A stretch of 64,000 bases of DNA. Origin: Spinacia oleracea. Its lineage: Eukaryota; Streptophyta; Magnoliopsida; Caryophyllales; Amaranthaceae. The DNA is taken from contig NC_079487.1 in NCBI RefSeq assembly GCF_020520425.1, positions 108,162,141 to 108,226,140 of the forward strand. The letters are read 5' to 3'. Of the stretch, positions 41,061-53,982 are shown one piece after another (within the stretch, counting starts at the first letter, position 1; each line of letters starts with the position of its first letter). The notes below the pieces were generated by a model. It saw only the letters and a program-made list of their open reading frames with translations. It was not told the origin of the DNA and ran no database searches. Made by a program: the position numbers and the translations under genes.

Positions 41061-41577
41061 ATTTGATATGATCCGAACTTATTTTTTCTGATCTAATCTG
41101 ATCTAAACTTATTTTTCTGATCTGATCTGATCTGATCTAATATGATTAAATCTGAAATAAGTAATAAGGCTCTGAAATAAGGTGAACTTAACGAGCCTAA
41201 TTATGGCTATGGCTCATGGGCCCTGAGCTTGTATAACACATTTGGTGGTTTTGTGACCAATAAATGTTCCTGCAGGTTGTTGGCCTGTAGGCTATAGATG
41301 TGGACTTTAATATGAGTACATGAGTAATATGACCATATTTCCACATATAATTATATATAGTTTATGAGAAATACGAAGTACTTCGTATAATCTTTTTTTT
41401 TTTTTTGACAGTAATTACAAACATGAAACAAGAATAAAAAAATGGACGATGATAAAGGTCGCAAGTTGCGACAACATTTAGTTGTCGCAATCTTACGTGT
41501 CGCAGTTTAATTGGTACATATAAGCGCCACGTAGGTTATGCGTCATCATAATATTTTTACTATTAATTCAATATTTC

Positions 41578-41906
41578 TGTTGTGGGCAAAATTACCGCGC
41601 CTTCGTGTACCAATGAGGACGTGACACATGGCACGTATTGCGCCCCCTAAGCAGAAATCATACGAAGTCTACTCCGAGGCATTCCCCAGCCAATCATGTA
41701 AGGGGAATATTAGGTCATTCCCCCAAAAACCTAGTACTATAAATATTCCCACTTCCCTAGAAAAAGGGGTCACAATCAATACATTCTAGAGCAATTGCTG
41801 CTCTGCCTTCTCTCTACTTTCTCTCTCTATAAAAATACAATCTTGTTTAATCTTTAAAAGTTACCAAGAAACCTCCAAGGTATCTCACCGGAAAAACCCC
41901 ACAACA
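41578..41906 (+). repeat. 5' LTR (deleted form)
   Basis: At 329 bp it matches the 3' LTR except for loss of 193 bp after GAGGCAT (41682) and a missing TC. The deletion is bounded by a CAT microhomology. The TATA box (TATAAAT, 41738-41744) survives. The G-box present in the 3' LTR is lost. Confidence 0.93.
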
Positions 41907-41908
41907 TT

Positions 41909-41920
41909 TGGCGCCGTCTG
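41909..41920 (+). promoter_or_regulatory. Primer binding site
   Basis: TGGCGCCGTCTG begins two bases after the 5' LTR. The first nine or ten bases complement the 3' end of plant tRNA-Asp (ending ACGGCGCCA). The match then fades, as in many Tat elements. Confidence 0.6.
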
Positions 41921-41937
41921 TGGGGAGGTACGGTAAC

Positions 41938-43841
41938 ATGGAAGATCAACGACAGGACAACGATACTGGGCGGCCTACGCGAGTAGAGCGGCCACCCCTC
42001 GAAAGAGAAATGCCGACTGAGCATCATACGCCGGCCACAAGAATCACCGAAGATGCCGCGCGTATATTTGCGGCCGGGCACACCCCTCGTCACACTGCCG
42101 AGGTAGAGGTGATCAGCGAGGAGGACGACCAGGCCAATCGCACCCCTCCTGGAGGACACCTGGACCCTCGGGTGGATACGGTAATAGAAGAGAACCCTGA
42201 TATGCCTGTCTCTGTGGGTGCTCTTCGGGCTATTTTGGCCGAGTTCCAAGTTGATGTGGGAAAGACAGTTAATGCTGAGGTACAGAAGAGTATGCTGATC
42301 TACACCACTGCTGTGGCTGCAAATCATGAGAGGCCGGCAAGCAATAGGCCAACACTTTCTTTGCGCCCCCCAAATGTCTGGACTAGGCTGACAGGCGAGG
42401 ACCTGAGGAGACAGCCGCCAGCAAGTCAGCCCAATCAGGCAATGTCTTACCTACCACGCCGAATGCCACGGCGGTTGATCGGAGAAACGTCCCGAGGACG
42501 TGAGCAGCCACGCGCAGAGCAACTGCCTGACTCTGAGTCTGAACTTTCTGACACGGGGTCAACCCCCGTCATGCCGGATAGACCTCTCACTCATCCAACT
42601 TATACGCATCTGAGCCAGGCGCGTCCAGGGGTCACCCGTCCAACCCGTCAAACTCGCGGACGCGAGTCTTCCCAACGGCTACCCTACTCAAGGCGTCAAG
42701 ATCCTGTGTATCACATTCAGGAGGGGGTGTCCAACATGGCCCTAGGGCACACCACCCCTTTTGCAGACTCCATCATGAGAGCCCCGAGGGAACCCAAAGT
42801 CAAGCCGCCCAACATTGATGCTTACGATGGTACCACAGATCCGGACATGCACCTCTTGGTTTACCGGCATCACATGTATGTCCAAGGAACAACTGACTCA
42901 ACCTGGTGTAAGTATTTTCCGGGCACACTCAAAGGAGTAGCCTCTAAGTGGTTTGAGAGACTTCCAGCCGGAACTATTCGCTCTTTTTCGGAGCTCGAGC
43001 TATTGTTCTCTACTCGGTTCATGGCTCACAAGGAAGAGAAGAAGACGAGCATGCATCTGAGTAGGATTCAGCAAGGGAAGGACGAGTCCCTGAGGAGTTA
43101 TGTGAAAAGATTCAATCTAGAGGCAGGGCAAATTCCGGATTTGCCAGATGGTGTTGCATTCGATAACTTCATTCGAGGGCTTAAAAAGGGCTCTTTCAAG
43201 TTTGATCTGGTAAAGAAAAGCGTCCGAACAATGGCAGAAGTGCTGGATGAGGCCGAGGCCTTCATTCATGCAACAGAGATTTGCAGCGTCCCGAAAGATC
43301 CCAGAGGAAGTGATACCGCCGAGCTAGCGGCAAAAAAGGAGAAATTCGAAAAGAAGAACCGGCCTAACGGGACGTGGGCTATTGCAAAAGAGTCAGACAG
43401 GGCCCCCGGAGCGGCAGGTCAGAAACGGCCCAGAACTTATGATCGGGAGCGATTTGATATAACACAGACATGTACACAATTCTGATGGACGTCGGGTCCA
43501 AATATGACATTGATCGTCCATTTCGCATGAAGTCGCCACCAGAAAGTAGGGACCCCAAACTGTACTGTCACTTTCACAGTGACATTGGGCATGACACCAA
43601 TGAATGTAAGAGCTTGAAAAGGGCATTGGACGGCCTAGCCACCAAGGGATTCTTAAAGAGTTATATCAGCAGGAACACGGGAGGTTCTGGCAAACCCTTC
43701 TACAAGAAAAACAAATCCCCTCCCTCGGAGGAAGATGGGAATCGTACCGACCCAGAGTGCGTAGCAGTCATCTCCGGAGGATTGGCCGCCGGCGGGCCGA
43801 CCATGAGGGGCCAGAAGGATTATGCCAAGCGATTGGGGTAA
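41938..43841 (+). pseudogene. gag: gag, frameshifted
   Basis: The frame from ATG 41938 gives a disordered Arg/Pro-rich N-terminus. A Retrotrans_gag capsid domain follows (about 42800-43280; YDGTTDPDMHL, WFERLPAGTIRSF, SLRSYVKRFN, FIRGL). It stops at 43485, while the continuing Gag sequence lies in another frame from about 43455. That second part carries a C-x2-H zinc-finger-like motif (YCHFHSDIGHDTNEC) and ends at TAA 43839-43841. One frameshift thus separates capsid and zinc finger. Gag packages the RNA genome in cytoplasmic particles. This copy should not make full-length Gag unless the shift is bypassed. Confidence 0.85.
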
Positions 43842-46478
43842 GTGATGCTGTCCGGCAAGGCCACAGTTGACCCGTTTCCAAAAGTTGAAATCGGCGAGGC
43901 CGACCGTGGGAAAATCTCCACCCCGCATGACGATCCTTTGGTAATTGAGTTAAAAGTTGCTAACCTGAGGGTTAGGCGTATTTTGGTTGATACAGGAAGT
44001 TCGTCGGACATAATTAGTCTAGAGTGCTTGAATCGGCTGCAACATGATTCCTCAAAGATTGAGAAAATCCACTATCCCATTATAGGCTTCGGAGGTAGTG
44101 TCATCCACCCAGTCGGCATAATTACCCTTCCTCTGAGGATGGGAAATAAAAAGGAATCTCGGCAAATGGATGTCCGTTTTCTCATAGTGAAAGATCTGAC
44201 GGCATATAACATCATCTTGGGGCGTCCTACGTTGAATAGGGCAAAGGCTGTCATTGTGACTCATCTGATGCTTCTTAAGTTCATTTGTGACGATGGGAGT
44301 GTCAGCACTATACATGGTGACCAGCAACAAGCTAGAGATTGCTACCTAACCACCTTAAGTCCAGAAGCATGGGGGACGGGTGAAGAGAAAGGGACATCGA
44401 GCAACAAACGAAAATGTGGCGACACGCAACCCAAGGTCGTCAAAGAAACATTAACTATCTCAGCAGGGCACATGGAAGAGAGACGCCCAGAGCCTGTTGG
44501 GGCCCATTTCAATGTGGTTTTAAACACAGATAAACCTGACAGAGTAGTGCCCATCGGGATTTCTCCTGACGACCCGCTGGCGGCAGAGTTGGTCCACCTT
44601 TTGAGAGAATTTGAAGATATCTTTGCTTTCACGGTGGACGAAATGCCGGGTATTGACCCTGCTGTGGCCGTCCATAAGCTGAATGTGGACCCAAACTTTA
44701 AACCGGTTCGTCAGAAGAAAAGGAACCATGGGGAAGATAGAAATCAGGCGGCAGCCGCGGAAATACAAAAGCTGATGGAGGCTGGGTTCGTCAGGCCTAG
44801 TCAGTACCCCGACTGGGTTGCTAACGTGGTCCTCGTCAAAAAACCTAATGGTACCTGGAGAATGTGTGTTGATTACACCAACCTCAATAAGGCATGTCCA
44901 AAGGACAGTTTCCCATTGCCCAAGATTGACCGGCTCGTCGACTCTACAGCAGGGCATGCTATGATGAGCTTTATGGATGCCTACTCAGGGTTTCATCAGA
45001 TTCCGTTGTGGCCTGACGACCAGGAAAAAACGTCATTTGTTACTGAACAAGGCCTTTACTGCTACAAGGTGATGCCGTTTGGGTTAAAGAATGCACCGGC
45101 CACCTTTCAGCATCTTATTAACACTGTGTTCATTAAGCAGCTCGGCAGAAATATTGAAGCTTACATTGATGATATGATCGTAAAAAGTAAGCTGAGGGCG
45201 GCGCACATAACTGATCTCAAGGAGACATTTGAGACTATTCGAGCTTACAACATGAGGTTGAATCCTAAGAAGTGTGTGTTCGGGGTGACGGCAGGCAAAT
45301 TCTTAGGTTTCTTGATTGATGAAAGAGGAATTGAAGCCAACCCAGACAAAATCCAGGCAGTAATTGATATGAGCTCACCAAAGACAGTGAAGGAGGTCCA
45401 GCGGCTCACAGGTTGCTTGGCCGCCCTGGGCAGATTCCTTTCCAGGGCTGGAGACAAGTGCCACTACTTTTTCTGGTCTGTCAGAAAGAAGGCCAAGTTT
45501 GAATGGTCGGACGAGGCCGAGGCGGCATTGGTCAGATTAAAGGAGCACTTACATACCTTGCCTCGTCTTGTTAGCCCCTTGCTAGGAGAGACTTTGTACA
45601 TATATCTCGCTGTGTCCGAGCACTCGTTGAGTGTCGTTCTACTGACAGAAAGGGAGGGAATACAGATGCCGGTATACTTTGTCAGTCATGTTCTTCAAAA
45701 TGCTGAAGTTAGATACCCTACAGTGGAAAAGTTTGGCTTAGCTCTATTCATGGCCAGCAAAAAGCTCCGTCCTTATTTCTTAGCTCACAAAATAGTGGTC
45801 TACACAGATCAACCGCTCAAATTGCCTTTCACAAAGCTGGAGGCGTCAGGACGAATGCTAAATTGGGCAATAGAGCTGAACGCCTTTGATATCACCTATG
45901 AGCCGAGGAAAGCTGTCAAGGGGCAGGCATGTGCCGACTTTATTGTTGAAATGACGAGGCCAGACTTTGCCAAGAATACAAACACGGTGTGGACAGTGTA
46001 TGTAGACGGCTCATCCACACAGAATGGATGTGGAGCAGGGATAATCTGTCACTCCCCAGAAGGAGATACTTTTGAGTATGCTATGCGATTTAACTTCCAG
46101 GCGTCGAATAATGAAGCCGAATATGAAGCTCTGCTTTGTGGCATTAAAATGTGTAAGGCGGCAGGCGCCGAGGATATTGTAGCACTATCTGACTCCCAAC
46201 TGATTGTAAGCCAAGTTAATGGGACCTACGAAGCTAGGGATCCGACTATGGTCAAATACATGCAGGCCGTCCATCAGGAAGTAGAGCCACTGAAAAGTTT
46301 TGAAGTAAGGCAAGTCCCTCGCTCGGAAAATAACCAAGCTGATGCCCTGTCAAAGTTGGCAAGTTCCGCGTCTTGTGATACCCCTCGGCACGTGTTTTGG
46401 GAGGTAAAAGAGCACAAAAGTGTTGAGCAAATGGAGGTGGAAACTCTTGACAGAACGTCCGGCCACATGGATGGATGA
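43842..46478 (+). pseudogene. pol: pol: protease, RT, dual RNase H
   Basis: This frame continues directly, in the same frame, after the TAA that ends gag; with readthrough it would be a Gag-Pol fusion. Domains in order: aspartic protease (LVDTGSSSDII, about residues 50-60); reverse transcriptase with VDYTNLN, FPLPKID, MDAYSGFHQI, the catalytic YIDDMIV and FLGFLIDERGIEANP; an RNase H of the usual Ty3/gypsy position that looks decayed; and a second RNase H (VYVDGSST, ASNNEAEYEALLCG, SDSQL, NNQADALSKLA) with plausible D-E-D-D residues. The second domain marks the Tat lineage. It is cut by a frameshift near 46440-46478, so integrase falls in another frame. Confidence 0.88.
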
Positions 46479-47702
46479 CATAGTGAACTTCAAAATGAAG
46501 GGAGTCTTGCCCGAAGACTCAAGGGAAGCGGCAAAACTTCAAAAGAAATGTTCTTGGTTTGAAATGTGGAACGGCACCCTCTATAAAAAGGCCTACTCCC
46601 GTCCTTTGTTAAGATGTGTAACACCTGAGAAGGGGAAGGAAATTCTAGAAGACCTTCATCAGGGATTGTGCAGCTCGCATATTGGTGGAAGGGCTTTGGC
46701 TGAAAAGGCACTTCGAACCGGCTATTACTGGCCGACTCTTAAGGAGGACGCAATCTCACTGGTCAAGAGGTGTGACAAATGCCAGCGCTTTTCTCACCTA
46801 ATACACCAACCAGCACGAGTTCTGACGCCCATTACAAGCCCAATTCCATTCGCTAAATGGGGGATGGATCTTCTAGGCCCATTTACGACCGCACCAGGAG
46901 GAAGGCGTTATGTCATCGTTGCTGTTGATTACTTCACCAAATGGGTGGAGGCAGAAGCGCTCAAAAACATAAAAACTACTGATGTGAGAGCATTCATTTG
47001 GAAGAACATCATGACTCGCTTTGGGATTCCACAGGCTATCGTCTTTGATAATGGGCCCCAGTTTGAGACGCCTAAGCTGAAAGAGTGGCTGGCAGATCAC
47101 GGTATACACACTTGTTTTGCATCAGTCGGACGACCCCAAGCCAATGGTCAGGTTGAGGCGTTCAACAAAATTATCTCTGAAGGAATGAAAAAGAAGCTTG
47201 ACGAAGCCAAAGGTCTGTGGGCTGATGAGCTGCCAAATGTCTTATGGTCCATCCGCACTACGGCTAAGAATTCAACCGGTGAAACACCCTTCTTGCTAGC
47301 CTATGGCGCCGAGGCTGTCCTGCCCATAGAAATTGTGAACCGACGTTGAGAGTCATGCTGTACGACGAAAATGCTAACTGGGAGACAATGAAAGCAGCCT
47401 TGGACTTTCTGCCCGAGGTTAGAGGAAATGCAGCGCTCAGACAACAGCTGTACAAGATAAGGATGGCAAGAGAATACAACAAGAGAGTCTCTAATAGAGT
47501 GCTCAAAGTGGGAGATTTTGTCCTCAGGAAAATGGAGTCCACAGGACGAGCAAATGAACAGGGTAAGCTGACGCCCACTTGGGAGGGACCTTACGAGATC
47601 TATGATGAGGTTAGAGATGGAACCTACCGCATTCAAGACATGCAAGGCCGCCCTATTTTGCGCACTTGGAATGCCGACAATCTCAAGAAGTATTTCTTCT
47701 AG
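46440..47702 (+). pseudogene. integrase with one frameshift
   Basis: Frame 46420-47349 encodes the H-H-C-C zinc domain (LHQGLCSSHIGG ... RCDKCQRF) and the DDE core (Asp in WGMDLLGPF, Asp in VFDNGPQF, Glu in GQVEAFNK). It then terminates at VNRR. The C-terminal domain continues in another frame, 47346-47702, including the GPY/F-like module (LTPTWEGPYEI). A one-base loss near 47340 explains the break. Integrase inserts the cDNA into the genome. The active-site triad is present but the protein would lack its C-terminal domain. Confidence 0.88.
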
Positions 47703-48101
47703 ATATGTGCTAAGCCTTGTCTTAATTACCACGATCCATTGCCCAAGGGGCGGCCTCTAATGGTCATAGTAGGGTAGTAATTACTTTTGTAACCGGCTAA
47801 ATTCGCCTTGCAAAGTTATAAATAATACTACTCTATTTGTCTCACAATATTTATTGCTCGAACAATGAATATAAAAATATACACTCCAATGCATAACCAA
47901 AGCCTAATTGTATGACGGCCTGAGAAGTGGCCCAGATTAGCAAAAACTCTCGGCAAGACTAATTGTTTGAAGCCTAAGAAGTGGCCCAGATTAGCACCAA
48001 GTTGTAGGCTGATCACCTATCCAACTCCCTTCCCAATATAGCAAGCCGCTGGCCGACCAGTACGGCATAGTAAGTGCCAGCGGCACAAATAAACCATAAA
48101 T
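47703..48101 (+). other. Non-coding spacer after integrase
   Basis: 400 bp with no domain-bearing frame. GCCTGAGAAGTGGCCCAGAT / GCCTAAGAAGTGGCCCAGAT occurs twice (about 47919 and 47971). Confidence 0.5.
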
Positions 48102-48285
48102 CATAGGTTGTTTGCTCAAAAGCTCAGCGGCATGAACAACTTTGAAACATAGGTTGTTTGCTCAAAAGCTCAGCGGCATGAACAACTTTGAAACATAGGT
48201 TGTTTGCTCAAAAGCTCAGCGGCATGAACAACTTTGAAACATAGGTTGTTTGCTCAAAAGCTCAGCGGCACCAATAACTTTGAGA
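48102..48285. repeat. 46-bp tandem repeat, four units
   Basis: Units start at 48102, 48148, 48194 and 48240 with the head CATAGGTTGTTTGCTCAAAA. The first three are identical and the fourth diverges at its end. Confidence 0.93.
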
Positions 48286-48900
48286 CAGGTTGTTCACACA
48301 AAAGTGCGGCGGCACGAATATTTGGCCGTCCAGTCCATTTGACGAGCATGCCTAGCGGCAATCATACCTATTGATTGACTTGCGTCAATCAATAACGTTA
48401 TAGACATGCTCGCCAAAGAAAGAGACGACCCCAGTAGTGCCTAGCGGATGATCGGTTGCCTGCGGCACCAATAATTTGAGACAGATTGTTTGCTGAAAAG
48501 TGCGGCGGCATGCACGTTTGGCCGACCAGTCCATTTGACGAGCATGTCTAGCGGCAATCATACCTATTGATTGACTTGCGTCAATCAATATCGTTATAGA
48601 CACGCTCGCCAAAGAAAGCGACGACCACAGTGAGGCCTAGCACATGCTCAGTTGCCTGCGGCACCAACAACTTCGAAACAGGGGTTGTTTGCTCAGAAGT
48701 TCGGCGGCACGAATATTTGGCCGTCCAGACCATTTGACGAGCATGTCTAGCGGCAATCATACCTATTGATTGACTCGCGTCAATCAATAACGTTATAGAC
48801 ATACTCGCCAAAGAAAGAGACGACCATATTAGTGCCTAGCGCATGCTCAGTTGCCTGCGGCACCAACGTGCTTAGTGTACACTCAGTTGCACCTTGGCTA
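48286..48900. repeat. Repeat of about 196 bp with a perfect hairpin, three units
   Basis: Three long units contain the 46-bp motif plus TTTGACGAGCATG and the palindrome TTGATTGAC-nnnn-GTCAATCAA (copies near 48370, 48565 and 48763). The region lies between the convergent sense pol and antisense genes, so a terminator or insulator role is possible but unproven. Confidence 0.8.
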
Positions 48901-49175
48901 CCATACCTATTGATTAAGCCTATAGACTAAGGAATAATCAAATTATGAAGAACAAATAAATGCGAGATAAAAGAACAAAAATAGCCTATTTATAGAACAA
49001 CGCCCGCAAGAGGCGTGCAAAGGTGGCCAAATATTCAAAACAAATTGTTGAGTGCTCAGCAGGCACAATGGTACAGACGCCAGCGGCGCCAAAACATAAC
49101 AAAATAATTTTTTTTCCCTTAGGCATGAGAACACTTAAATAAATTTTTTGCTGGAATAATACAGAAGGAAGCAAA
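48901..49175. other. Spacer, 3' side of the antisense gene
   Basis: Non-coding, probably the 3' UTR of the antisense gene; it holds no supported frame. Confidence 0.4.
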
Positions 49176-52100
49176 TCAGGGAGCGGCCGCATCGTCCTCG
49201 TCATCGGAGGATACAAACTCAGGGGGCGACTGACCAAGACGTTCAGCAGCCAACACAGCGGCACTATGTTCCATTCGCCGCTGGAACCACGCAAGATCAT
49301 ACTCTGACATGTGGCTCTCCCAGGCGTGCTTAACAGCGTCCTTGGTCGCTTGTTCCCCCTGATCATAGGATTCCAGGAGACGCTCACGCAAGGTGCGAAC
49401 TTGCGATCTGGCCGTCTCTAGCTCCCACGAAGATGCTCGGCCTCCTCAGCCGCCTCTTTGACCTGAGGGTACTCCCGCAACTGGTCCTGAAGCGTCCGTA
49501 TTTCCGCCGCCGCTGTCTTGGCCTCCTCGACCATTGCCACCATGTCTTTATCCTGCGCCAAGATCTTCTTAAGCAGCTCGGCCTTGTCAGATCTCAACGC
49601 AGCCACCTCCTTTGCTTGAAGGTCTATGGTCGTCTGCATCTGCAGGCGGACCTCTTCAATGGATTTGAACGCATAGTCGCCATGGTGGGTGGACTCAGCC
49701 ACCTGAGCTTTGAGCTCCTCAGCAGTGCGGGTCTTCCAACTCTTACAGAACTCCATGCGGCAGAACAACTGCAAAAGGAGCTACATGTTAGTAAATGACT
49801 AAAAGAGAAGACAAGTACAAGCAAGTTGGAAATAGACTTACGTCGAGAAGAGTGGCCTGGATCGCACCAAACTGGGCGTCAGTCTTGCGGCCAGGAAGAG
49901 AAGCAACATACTCTGCGGGGACGGCCTTAAAAACCTTGAGGCATATAGCCACCCTATCCTTTGACGAATAGTGGGGAGTAGCAGGTACGTTCTCGTCCTC
50001 TGCAGCAGCTGCATCCTTCCCTTTGTCTTTGGCTATAGGAAAAACAACGGCCTTAGGATGACGCGGAGAGTAAGAAGAACTGCCAGAGGAGGCTCGATAC
50101 GTCTGAACGACGTTCGAATAATACTTACCGCCCGATGACCTAGCTCGGCGGGCCACCTCCGCAGGTATCTGAGAGCGGACGTCGGCCGGGATTCCAGAAA
50201 GAGGGTCCTCCAGCTCGTCCGGATGCCCACCGGACCTCGATTTGGACACCAAGTCCACCACTAGAGACGGCTTGTCCACGCCAATCTCATCGTCATCAGG
50301 GCATCCCCCCTCAGCAACCTTCGACTCGTCTTTCTTCATGAGACGGCGGGGTAGGGGTTTTGGCTTTTTGAAGGTACTCGGAGTCTCCGAGCCAGCTGGC
50401 ACAGCTCTCTTCTTCAGCTGGGACAGAGTCGTCCCCTTCTTCTTCCCTGACGCCCTAGCCGCGTCCTTAGCTTGCTAAAAAAGAAAGTAAAGGACAGTCA
50501 AATATTGGGCCTCGTCATCAATCACAAGTCACTCACAGAATAGTGGCTCGTCATTAAAAAGGACGCCCGTCTCAAAATGACGAGGCGTACCTTATCAATC
50601 ACAAGTCACTCACAAGATAGTGGCTCGTCATTAAAAAGGACGCCCGTCTCAAAATGACGAGGCGTACCTTATCAATCACAAGTCACTCACAGAATAGTGG
50701 CTCGTCATTAAAAAGGACGCCCGTCTCAAAATGACGAGGCATACCTTATCAATCACAAGTCACTCACAGAATAGTGGCTCGTCATTAAAAAGGACGCCCG
50801 TCTCAAAATGACGAGGCATACCTTATCAATCACAAGTCACTCACAGAATAGTGGCTCGTCATTAAAAAGGACGCCCGTCTCAAAATGACGAGGCGTACCT
50901 TATCAATCACAAGTCACTCACAAGATAGTGGCTCGTCATTAAAAAGGACGCCCGTCTCAAAATGACGAGGCGTACCTTATCAATCACAAGTCACTCATAG
51001 AATAGTGGCTCGTCATTAAAAAGGACGCCCGTCTCAAAATGACGAGGCGTACCTTATCAATCACAAGTCACACAGAATAGTGGCTCGTCATTAAAAAGGA
51101 CGCCCGTCTCAAAAATGACGAGGCGTACCTTATCAATCACAAGTCACTCACAGAATAGTGGCTCGTCATTAAAAAGGACGCCCGTCCCAGAAATGACGAG
51201 GCGTACCCTATCAACCACGAGTCACTTGTAAAAAAGGGGTGGGGGTGGCCCGTCTTAAAAGGTGACGAGGCGCACCTTGGCAACCACAGGAAAAACACTA
51301 ACAAAGGGGCCCGTCATTAAAAAGTGACGAGGCCAACCTTAGCAAACACGGGTCACATGTCAGGATACCGGCTCGTCACTAAAAAGACGTCCACTGTAGA
51401 CAATGGACGGGGGAAGCTTAACTTGCAAAAACAACCTAAGAGAATACTCACCTTCTCCTCCAACTCGGCCTTGGCTTTTTGCATCTTGGCCTCATAGATG
51501 TCCGCCATCCAATCGGTCATATCGCCCTTCCCGGTATCCGCCGCCGACAACTTGCTCATTCCTTCCTCTGTGAACAAAAGAAATCCAAAGTTAGAAAAAT
51601 GAATAAGACCAAGGCAGAGCGGCACATAAATTGGCATACAACCTCGAGTCATGGAATATCCTAAGCCTACGGCCGCTAGAAAGGCCTCGTTCCGAAACTG
51701 GCTAATGTGCGGCAACCACTCGGCCGGCACATGGAAACTCTTATCCACTGTTAAGTGGTAAGTGTTGGCCCTGAACAGGACCATTATCTGATCCCACTCT
51801 TCGGCAGTAAGGGGTGGAAGGGGCTCGTCACGATCCATGAAGTTGGCGTTGCAGTTCCAGCGGCTCATTCTCTCATACATCTCCTGGTCGTCCGTGTAAA
51901 ACACGACCCACCTCTTCCTCCACATATGCCACTTGCTGAGCTTGCCGACCACTGTCTGGTAGGTACCACGGCTGCTCAGATTAAACCACCCTTTGGCGGC
52001 ACTGGGGGAACGAGAGAGGGAGACCAGATGCAGAAAGGCGTTGAAGGACGGCTCCACGTCGTTCAGCGCACATTTGGCAATATAGCCAAAGATATCCGCC

Positions 52101-52666
52101 CATGAGTTGGGGGTCAGCTGGGCCACCCCAATATTAAAACCATCTAACACCTCCACAACGAAGGGGTGTGGAGGGAATCTCATGCCGAGTTTGATGGACG
52201 CGGCATACACAGGGAATTCTCCCTCGGCAAGCAGGCTGGCGGTCGAGTCCAGACCGGCCGGCACGCGCATTTGGTACCCTTCCCCCACGCAGAGGTCATC
52301 CCTCATCTTGGCTCCGTGCCTGTCTAGCCACCGCATCCAGCCCACGTCTGGGTGAATCTCTGACGGAAGCAATTGGGCCTCCTCCCGTCCTCTGGGCCTA
52401 ATAAGCTGGGGAGCAGCTTCTTGCTCCTCGGCGGCCGATGACAATGGAGCGACGCTTGGCTCCCCCACTGCCTGGCTCGCTGTACCCTCCGACGAGCTTG
52501 CCGCCTGCTCCCCCGCCTCGACATACTCGTCGATCTCTTGAAAGAGTTCGGCAAATTCTTCGTCGACTGCCGGGGCGGTGGAAGAATATCTCTCCCTAGG
52601 AGGTGTCGATGCTTCTTCCCGCAAGCGCAGACGCGTAGGATCTGCCGTTTGCTTGGTTCTAGCCAT
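49176..52666 (-). CDS. Antisense Tat gene starting with an H3-like tail
   Basis: Minus-strand coding exons 52666-51643, 51567-51452, 50474-49842 and 49768-49176 keep phase through three GT-AG introns (75, 977 and 73 bp), giving about 788 residues. A 5'-UTR intron (52794-52672) removes the only upstream ATG, so translation starts MARTKQTA, identical to residues 1-8 of histone H3 including Met. Next come an acidic region (DEEFAELFQEIDEY), a block around residues 130-330 resembling the putative gypsy-type transposon domain PF04195 (LTPNSWADIFGYI, VVGKLSKWHMWRKRWVVF), a Lys/Ser-rich linker, a coiled coil in exon 4 and an acidic tail (SSDDEDD). A frameshift near 49430 splits exon 4. Its function is unknown; chromatin binding is inference. 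Confidence 0.8.
50500..51400. repeat. 77-bp tandem array in antisense intron 2
   Basis: Units start at TAGTGGCTCGTC at 50541, 50618, 50695, 50772, 50849, 50926, 51003, 51078 and 51156, giving nine close copies. Degenerate copies follow to about 51400. Each unit holds CTCGTCATT ... AATGACGAG, an inverted repeat able to fold. The whole array lies within the 977-bp intron 2 of the antisense gene. Confidence 0.95.
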
Positions 52667-52671
52667 GCCTT

Positions 52672-52794
52672 CTGCATAGTGAACGAAGCACGGCTTAGGG
52701 GTGACCAACAATGAAGAAAAAGACGCGATTGGACGTCCGCCCCGACAAAAGATGAACGGCGGAAAAATCTTAAATAAAACCTTTAAACCCTTAC
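52672..52794 (-). other. 5'-UTR intron of the antisense gene
   Basis: Donor ACTAG|GTAAGG (exon end 52795) and acceptor TATGCAG|AAGGC (exon start 52671) bound 123 bp. The out-of-frame ATG embedded in the acceptor (ATGCAG) is removed by splicing. The next ATG, four-base context GGCATGG, is the MARTKQTA start. Confidence 0.7.
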
Positions 52795-52901
52795 CTAGTA
52801 CTAAGAGGTCGGCCGCTAACAAAGAGAAAAATGACGAGAGGATAACAAAAACAAGAAATAAAGGCGAAAACTAACCTCGAAAGATCTGCGAAGTACTCGA
52901 T

Positions 52902-52985
52902 GAAGAACAAGATGAGTTTCGCGAAGAACAGGATGAGTTTCGCGAAGAACAGGGTGAGTTTGACGAGGGAAAGGATGAGTCTCGT
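52902..52985. repeat. 21-bp tandem repeat, four units
   Basis: GAAGAACAGGATGAGTTTCGC units start at 52902, 52923, 52944 and 52965, with the last two diverged. They lie in the 5' UTR of the antisense gene, which contains no ATG on that strand between 52795 and the TATA box. Confidence 0.85.
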
Positions 52986-53087
52986 GGTGGCCGGAAATCG
53001 CCTGAGGGTGGTAGGAATACGCCGGAAATCGCCTATGAGACAGCTCTGAGAAAACAAAATGTAAAAAAATGAAATTTACCCCCCCCT

Positions 53088-53097
53088 CTATATATAG
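53088..53097 (-). promoter_or_regulatory. TATA box of the antisense gene
   Basis: CTATATATAG, symmetrical, set in C/G runs. It lies about 290 bp before the 5'-UTR donor on the minus strand. It is the only strong TATA upstream of the antisense gene inside the element. Confidence 0.6.
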
Positions 53098-53117
53098 GGA
53101 GGGGCAAAATGGAGAAA

Positions 53118-53133
53118 GGTGACACGTGTCACC
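53118..53133. promoter_or_regulatory. Palindromic G-box upstream of the antisense TATA
   Basis: GGTGACACGTGTCACC is a perfect 16-bp palindrome around the CACGTG G-box, 21 bp upstream of the antisense TATA box. bZIP or bHLH factors bind such sites. In plants ACGTG cores often respond to abscisic acid or light. Confidence 0.65.
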
Positions 53134-53218
53134 ATCTCAACACCTGACCCAAAGATGAAGATGCAAATCAAGAGTCAAGAAGCGATACCCGGAATGTGTT
53201 TCCAGAAATGCCCTTCTT

Positions 53219-53228
53219 GAGGGGCAAA
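53219..53228 (+). promoter_or_regulatory. Polypurine tract
   Basis: GAGGGGCAAA directly abuts the 3' LTR start (TGTTGTGGG), the normal place for second-strand priming in LTR retrotransposons. Confidence 0.75.
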
Positions 53229-53752
53229 TGTTGTGGGCAAAATTACCGCGCCTTCGTGTACCAATGAGGACGTGACACATGGCACGTATTGCGCCCCCTA
53301 AGCAGAAATCATACGAAGTCTACTCCGAGGCATGAGTATTAATCTAGGTATCTACAATGTATGTATTTAAGTGTGTATAAATGTATGTATAAAACCTATA
53401 CCTGGAAAGGGGCTTAATTAGTATGTATCCCAAGTGAATGACTAAGCACAATAGGCCCAAACAGCCCACTATTGCCAAAAGGGACCAGAGAATTGTAAGG
53501 AGAAAGGACACGTGTCCTCCTCCCATTCCCCAGCCAATCATGTAAGGGGAATATTAGGTCATTCCCCCAAAAACCTAGTACTATAAATATTCCCACTTCC
53601 CTAGAAAAAGGGGTCACAATCAATACATTCTAGAGCAATTGCTGCTCTGCCTTCTCTCTCTACTTTCTCTCTCTATAAAAATACAATCTTGTTTAATCTT
53701 TAAAAGTTACCAAGAAACCTCCAAGGTATCTCACCGGAAAAACCCCACAACA
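53229..53752 (+). repeat. 3' LTR (full form)
   Basis: At 524 bp it holds the 193-bp segment (53334-53526) missing from the 5' LTR, including the palindromic G-box AGGACACGTGTCCT at 53505-53518. TATA box TATAAAT is at 53582-53588. Confidence 0.95.
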
Positions 53753-53982
53753 ATTTCTACTACGAAAATATGTAAATAAGGTAGCCGTTATAAAAAAGGA
53801 AAAAATTAGAATATTAAGATTTTCCTACCTTTTTTTTATAACATGTATAATAAAAAATATAAGTTAAGTAATTTAAATCATGACACATAAGCATGCCATG
53901 TCATCATTGTGACACAGCTTAAAGGTCGCATGTTGCGACCTTTATCATTTTCGTAAAAAAATTCCCACCCGCAACTAACAGC

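Follow-up and report, generated by a model that had tools for sequence, protein, structure and literature searches.

A Histone H3-like N-Terminus in the Antisense TRP28 Protein of Retand-like Retrotransposons in Spinach

The antisense TRP28 protein of a retrotransposon in spinach (Spinacia oleracea) begins MARTKQTA, that is, Met followed by residues 1–7 of histone H3, and variants of this start are conserved at the protein level in diverged families of related elements. The motif is most likely a selected N-terminal docking peptide. Our main reading goes further: we give a probability of about 0.4 to the proposal that the TRP28 protein truly begins with the motif, that selection maintains this N-terminus, and that the freed ARTKQTA tail docks to a reader of the H3 tail, as a recruiter or a decoy.

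Results

The window, by which we mean the whole 64,000-nucleotide stretch of contig NC_079487.1 that was analyzed, contains an LTR retrotransposon of the Ty3/gypsy type at 41578–53752, identified by its LTRs, target-site duplication, and gag and pol domains. Self-comparison and the sequence itself place the 5′ LTR at 41578..41906 and the 3′ LTR at 53229..53752, and a 5-bp target-site duplication, ATTTC, is read at 41573–41577 and 53753–53757. Gag-pol occupies 41908..47702 of the plus strand as several ORFs, in which Pfam and the ORF list identify gag, RT, RNase H, and integrase; a protease match in this region is under Pfam's cut-off. As self-comparison shows, ∼190 bp of the 3′ LTR have no counterpart in the 5′ LTR, and the shared parts are 98.7–100% identical. 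To judge from its sequence, the element is a young insertion with a shortened 5′ LTR. In the ORF list, the pol frame of this copy is not intact: it has a stop and a shift of frame (43839–43841 and 46420–46478).

Two features place the element. RT, RNase H, and integrase lie between LTRs flanked by a target-site duplication (Pfam, self-comparison), and the long region between pol and the 3′ LTR carries an antisense TRP28 ORF (Pfam, tblastn), both as in Retand elements. By its domains and the antisense TRP28 hallmark, we class it as Retand-like Ty3/gypsy. In recently active Retand clusters, 97% encode an antisense TRP28 ORF, the function of which is described as unknown in the available part of that report (PMC11963269). 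The region also holds a tandem array of about nine copies of a 77-bp unit at 50517–51226, between the first and second antisense coding exons (self-comparison), and a second repeat array at 48098–48867. Vicient 2025 finds repeat arrays in this position in about half of its elements (PMC11963269).

The antisense gene sits between pol and the 3′ LTR and is read from the minus strand throughout. Its first coding exon (51452..52666; tblastn of P0008 and P0003) encodes the H3-like start, a variable linker, and the TRP28 domain. The second coding exon (49839..50474; tblastn of P0003, P0004, P0006, and P0008) is spliced further in some NCBI models, and the last coding part (49179..49777; tblastn of P0004, P0006, and P0008) shows a frame change near 49424 relative to the NCBI models in tblastn and gives weak Pfam matches only, under the cut-off. 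PF04195 (Transposase_28, TRP28) is matched at residues 154–217 with an E value of 4e-11 and 43.4 bits, against a curated cut-off of 26.2. Matches of the antisense protein to Fez1, DUF4359, and other Pfam families were weak and were dropped as under the cut-off. The fold predicted from five near-identical rows has a pLDDT of 33, too low to be of use, and a PDB sequence search with the 20-residue start gave no match, a result with no bearing on binding.

The original prediction placed MARTKQTA at the beginning of this gene, and direct reading agrees with it to the letter: 52666..52643 of the minus strand is ATGGCTAGAACCAAGCAAACGGCA, which translates to MARTKQTA and is followed by DPTRLRLREEA. 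Translation from this ATG (52666, minus strand) gives MARTKQTADPTRLRLREEA. The claim that this Met starts a spliced antisense gene is likewise supported: the spinach protein P0008 of NCBI (769 aa, "isoform X2") has the same Met as its first residue and supports a spliced gene, and an intron is predicted upstream. A related copy, P0002, begins MARTKQKADPT. No in-frame ATG occurs between the preceding stop and the start at 52666 when the frame is read, and a scan of the 620 bases upstream finds only three ATGs: one at 52677, inside a predicted intron, and two farther upstream than a TATA-like box (53135 and 53280). This predicted 5′UTR intron (52672..52875, minus strand) has AG/GTTAGT as its donor and ends with TATGCAG/, an acceptor that leaves five bases to the ATG; an alternative donor, AG/GTAAGG, lies at 52794 on the minus strand. 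Because removal of the intron would end five bases before it, the ATG of MARTKQTA (52664..52666, minus strand) is the predicted first AUG once the antisense mRNA is spliced. The TATA-like box, CTATATATA (53089..53097, minus strand), is a putative antisense promoter that recurs in loci of families A and B, and the window leader from this box (53097–53089) to the AG/GTTAGT donor (52875) contains no ATG.

The same arrangement is seen in a sample of 31 leaders, comprising the window and 30 loci chosen by the motif (L039–L068). A CAG acceptor precedes the ATG by 5–6 bases in 30 of the 31, and a donor-like site is present in 24 (14/15 in family A, 3/4 in B, 7/12 in C). The TATA-like box is found 386–453 bases upstream in all 15 A loci and all four B loci, and in none of the 12 C loci; among loci with both box and donor, the stretch between them is ATG-free in 13/14 (A) and 2/3 (B). 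The near-constant position of the box and the ATG-poor leader suggest that the antisense gene of families A and B is driven by an internal promoter of its own and not by an LTR promoter.

These leaders also bear on the alternative that translation begins elsewhere, which would make the H3-like peptide internal and leave no free terminus. An out-of-frame ATG lies 11 bases upstream of the MARTKQTA start (52677), an in-frame ATG is present 12 bases before the start in loci of B and C, and the NCBI model P0005, from a copy with an open leader, begins far upstream. Both of the nearby ATGs, however, lie inside TATGCAG, the acceptor-like CAG of which is kept in 30/31 loci, and thus within the inferred intron, so that splicing would remove them; moreover, P0008 and P0002 begin at the motif Met. 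We consider a start elsewhere improbable.

Distribution of the Motif

The pattern MARTKQTA(D/N) occurs at 334 places in the 894-Mb spinach genome, and the reversed pattern at 0. Residue 2 of the pattern may be S, and it is R in all 100 places listed of the 334. A wider motif, M-A-[R/S]-[T/I/M]-x-[Q/K/N/H]-T-A-[D/N], gives 647 places, again with 0 for the reversed control, and many of the 100 matches listed of the 647 start with ARIRQTA, ARIKQTA, or ARTKKTA. All 30 loci examined from the wider search (L039–L068) have a TRP28 domain nearby. Protein searches returned spinach proteins only, whether the query was the whole first exon (8000 candidates scored), residues 95–345 of P0002 (1085 candidates), or residues 1–40 of P0008 (6 candidates). 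In a 257-billion-base prokaryote collection, 6 stretches match a somewhat wider pattern, and searches of IMG/VR gave no relative and no match to the pattern.

Restricting the search to MARTKQTA coded with CGN arginine yields 17 matches, and direct reading of all of them assigns 13 to histone H3 genes or H3-like sequences and 4 to starts of the Retand type. The latter, which are mostly decayed, read MARTKQTAN[V/I]GAWG at L008, L119, and L127 and MARTKQTANVGEWE at L125; of the two checked for TRP28 similarity, L119 showed it and L008 did not. These H3 loci bear on the possibility that the start of the antisense gene derives from capture of a host H3 gene's 5′ end, with its 5′UTR intron, start, and first codons. 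Plant H3.3 genes have a 5′UTR intron before the ATG, and the first eight residues are common to both proteins, as capture would predict. Yet broken H3 loci in spinach stay H3-like to about codon 18–24, whereas the likeness in the window stops after codon 8. The leader was compared with 16 loci (13 H3, 3 Retand-type), and against the 13 H3 loci its best non-codon match is 26 bp, with an E value of 0.018, leaving capture unsupported. We regard this origin, too, as improbable.

Conservation among Families

To sample the window's family independently of the motif, close copies were sought with a linker stretch that occurs at 382 places, with 0 or 1 mismatch in all 100 listed; the counts rest on the 54 of these 100 that lie on contigs C1 and C2, where the motif list is complete. 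MARTKQTA(D/N) is at the right distance, by coordinates, in 48 of the 54. The remaining six, read directly, all begin MARTKQ, two of them with MARTKQTA intact, which gives family totals of 54/54 for MARTKQ and 50/54 for MARTKQTA.

Families B, C, and D were sampled by PF04195 rather than by the motif: from 2698 first-look candidates 150 were scored, and the 30 best together with 40 hand-picked from the other 120 make up the sample (L009–L038 and L069–L108, n = 70). Sixteen are family D, and 54 are families B and C. Family D (L009–L021, L030, L035, and L105; SLEMGLRFPLHPFIPE type) has no H3-like start, its upstream frames carrying MDNNSKP or MASDEL. Families B and C, which start MARTKKTAN and MARIRQTAN, are 40–44% identical to the window protein overall. 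At a likeness score of at least 22, the motif is present in 48 of the 54 B and C loci and was not found in L022, L037, L078, L088, L091, and L097. The 48 motif-bearing copies are 15 from B and 33 from C, one of the copies counted in C (L089) being of the C3 type, an old, mostly decayed family with the start MARTKQTAN.

Because these 48 copies were recognized by likeness, the residue figures that follow overstate conservation somewhat: residue 1 is A in 45/48, residue 2 is R in 46/48, residue 4 is basic (K or R) in 47/48, residue 6 is T in 45/48, and residue 7 is A in 32/48. Residue 8 is N or D in all 48; H3 has R there. Residue 3 varies (T in 15, I in 32, M in 1), as does residue 5 (Q in 30, K in 16, N in 2), where all 15 family B copies have K or N. 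What families A, B, and C have in common is the core A-R-x-[K/R]-x-T-[A/T]-[N/D], with A1, R2, the basic residue 4, T6, and N/D8 kept most. Given that position 8 is N/D, that A7 is lost from 16/48 B and C copies, and that family D is free of the motif, the motif appears to have a logic of its own.

The likeness to H3 follows family lines. An N-terminal A/V-R-T-K in register is found in the window, A, B, and C3 and is lacking in C (ARIR). K4 is kept in A, B, and C3, and residue 4 is R in 31 of the 33 family C copies. The original prediction had the free N-terminus carrying the H3K4 context, but that an intact form of this context is the conserved element is not supported: family C reads ARIRQTA and family B ARTKKTA or ARTKNTA, and the exact heptapeptide ARTKQTA is absent from all 48 motif-bearing B and C copies. 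With K4 lost in family C, a generally conserved H3K4-methylation context is ruled out. The same prediction named variable N-termini in related copies as evidence against itself; the start is nearly fixed in the window's family, and it is in B and C that it deviates. The window protein departs from H3 at residue 8 and shows no H3 likeness past residue 7, no histone family is matched in Pfam, and neither a longer H3 match nor a histone fold was found.

Selection on the Start and Its Ancestral State

The start codon, the upstream acceptor-like signal, and the motif recur in the same place in diverged families, and the motif stands out from its surroundings. Between the window and a family B locus (L104), residues 1–8 are identical at 7/8 positions and residues 17–100 at 21/84; with a family C locus (L033), the values are 6/8 and 15/84. 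In the TRP28 half (residues 101–240), identity to the window is 67/140 for L104 and 71/140 for L033. Across codons 2–8 of six single loci, pS is 0.71–1.41, near saturation, and pN is 0–0.23 in 15 pairs that are not independent. The clearest case is A2 (L046) against C3 (L119), which share ARTKQTA with 7/7 codons different, all of them synonymous; only 27.5% of single changes at ARTKQTA codons are expected to be synonymous. Since the codons drifted and the residues stayed, it was the protein sequence, not the DNA, that was conserved, and we reject a DNA-level signal as the cause. The ORF list contains no sense-strand ORF of at least 100 aa over the motif.

The H3 likeness was originally judged unlikely to be due to chance, and conservation at the protein level across loci supports the view that it is more than a private accident of one copy. 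Plain chance, with a protein start under no constraint, has in its favor that wide scanning meets famous short peptides anyway. Against it stands the conservation across families in the face of near-saturated synonymous change, as does the retention of MARTKQTA in 50/54 close copies, though recent spread alone would explain much of that retention. We regard plain chance as very improbable.

A different question is whether what was selected has anything to do with H3. The motif may be conserved and functional for reasons unrelated to H3, for example in folding back on the TRP28 domain, in self-assembly, in nuclear import, or as an N-terminal processing signal, with the H3 match in some families being coincidental. 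The core common to the families is not H3 itself; positions 3–5 vary by family, position 8 is unlike H3 throughout, and the non-H3 forms ARIRQTA, ARIKQTA, and ARTKKTA are many among the 100 listed of 647. However, A, A2, A3, and C3 share ARTKQTA through different codons, in register at a predicted free terminus, and drift spared A1 and R2, of which R2 is needed by H3-tail PHD fingers (PMC7718874). We would put an H3-unrelated function just short of even odds.

Which form came first can be read in part from the families. ARTKQTA is found in A, A2, A3, and C3, and ARTKKTA in B. T3 is common to A, B, and C3; K4 to A, B, C3, and some C and C2 loci; and Q5 to A, C, C2, and C3. In the TRP28 tree, A and B are grouped with support of 82/67, and the best tree joins C3 to C and C2 with 77/70, neither fork being starred; the alternative of C3 with A and B has a p-AU of 0.219 and is hence not rejected. 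C3 and C have the stretch NVGAW..PRE in common, and L119 (C3) is 73% identical to C, as compared with 53% to A. If C3 sides with C, ARTKQTA is the simplest ancestral state. An ancestral ARTKQTA is thus favored, not proven, by parsimony by eye in which residue 3 hangs on a weak, unstarred fork.

Discussion

Removal of the initiator Met is expected before Ala. In the docking reading, this removal would expose a free A-R-T-K-Q-T-A tail at the N-terminus of the TRP28 protein, and the tail would dock to a host nuclear protein, most likely a reader of the H3 tail, which would grip A1 by its N-terminal amine and R2 by its guanidinium. Putative readers are found among PHD fingers, such as those of ATXR5/6, AIPP2/PAIPP2, or a UHRF1-type protein. 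The TRP28 domain and the C-terminal part would bring the protein to element DNA or multimerize it, and a chromatin factor would thereby be recruited, or occupied by a decoy, during the life cycle of the element. Candidate docking peptides are ARTKQTADPTRLRLR, ARIRQTANVRAWAA, and ARTKKTANIADLRLR. Docking to readers of H3 A1 and R2 is plausible, and we hold it to be about as likely as a coincidental resemblance.

Several published observations suit such docking, as far as the accessible portions of the reports go. The PHD finger of UHRF1 reads the VRTK of PAF15 like the ARTK of H3, with the N-terminus hydrogen-bonded, and the effect of the PAF15 K5A substitution is small (PMC7060239). With the D306K substitution, which is expected to lose the R2 contact, the Arabidopsis PAIPP2 PHD finger hardly binds unmodified H3 any longer; the PHD finger of soybean ATXR5 reads the H3 tail with unmodified H3K4 (PMC7718874). 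Since H3-tail PHD fingers need R2 and the K5A effect in PAF15 is small, the loss of K4 in family C would be less damaging to mimicry than it appears. In maize, the protein encoded antisense in Grande is located in the nucleus (PMC7264820). Against strict H3 mimicry, P0002 carries K in place of T6.

A stronger version of the docking reading holds that the motif is an ancient, selected mimic of the H3 tail that serves as a decoy or recruiter of A1/R2 readers, evading silencing or steering integration. In this version, the swap of K4 to R in some families would have followed the origin of the mimic and would make it immune to H3K4 methylation. This history strikes us as fairly unlikely.

A short N-terminal peptide under selection across diverged families offers a concrete, cheaply testable handle on TRP28 function. 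If H3-tail readers bind it, plants would have a transposon that encodes a histone mimic, and the element a direct route to host chromatin. If they do not, the motif still marks a conserved functional site of the TRP28 family.

An H3-like N-terminus that acts as a docking peptide has a precedent in the SNAG-domain factors, which recruit LSD1, and the SNAG consensus differs from ARTKQTA. In the open-access literature we found no relevant report of an H3-like start of a TRP28 protein or of histone mimicry in transposable elements. Within that literature, the antisense TRP28 gene is already known, and its H3-like N-terminus is apparently new.

The closest known system is the Retand TRP28 antisense ORF, which is likewise antisense between pol and the 3′ LTR, contains PF04195, and is accompanied by tandem repeats (PMC11963269). 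Vicient 2025 covers the TRP28 domain and its predicted DNA binding, and the available part of the article makes no mention of an H3-like start (PMC11963269). VANC of the Arabidopsis VANDAL elements is, like the putative role of the spinach protein, a case of a plant transposon protein acting on host chromatin; compared by description only, it differs in that it causes sequence-specific hypomethylation, and the accessible text describes no H3-like start (PMC5735166). PAF15 is similar as a non-histone protein in which an N-terminal V-R-T-K is recognized like the ARTK of H3 (PMC7060239). It is a vertebrate host protein for which binding was shown (PMC7060239), whereas docking of the spinach protein is a proposal. 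The spinach match to H3, at 7 residues, is longer than that of PAF15, but it is altered at positions 3–4 in family C.
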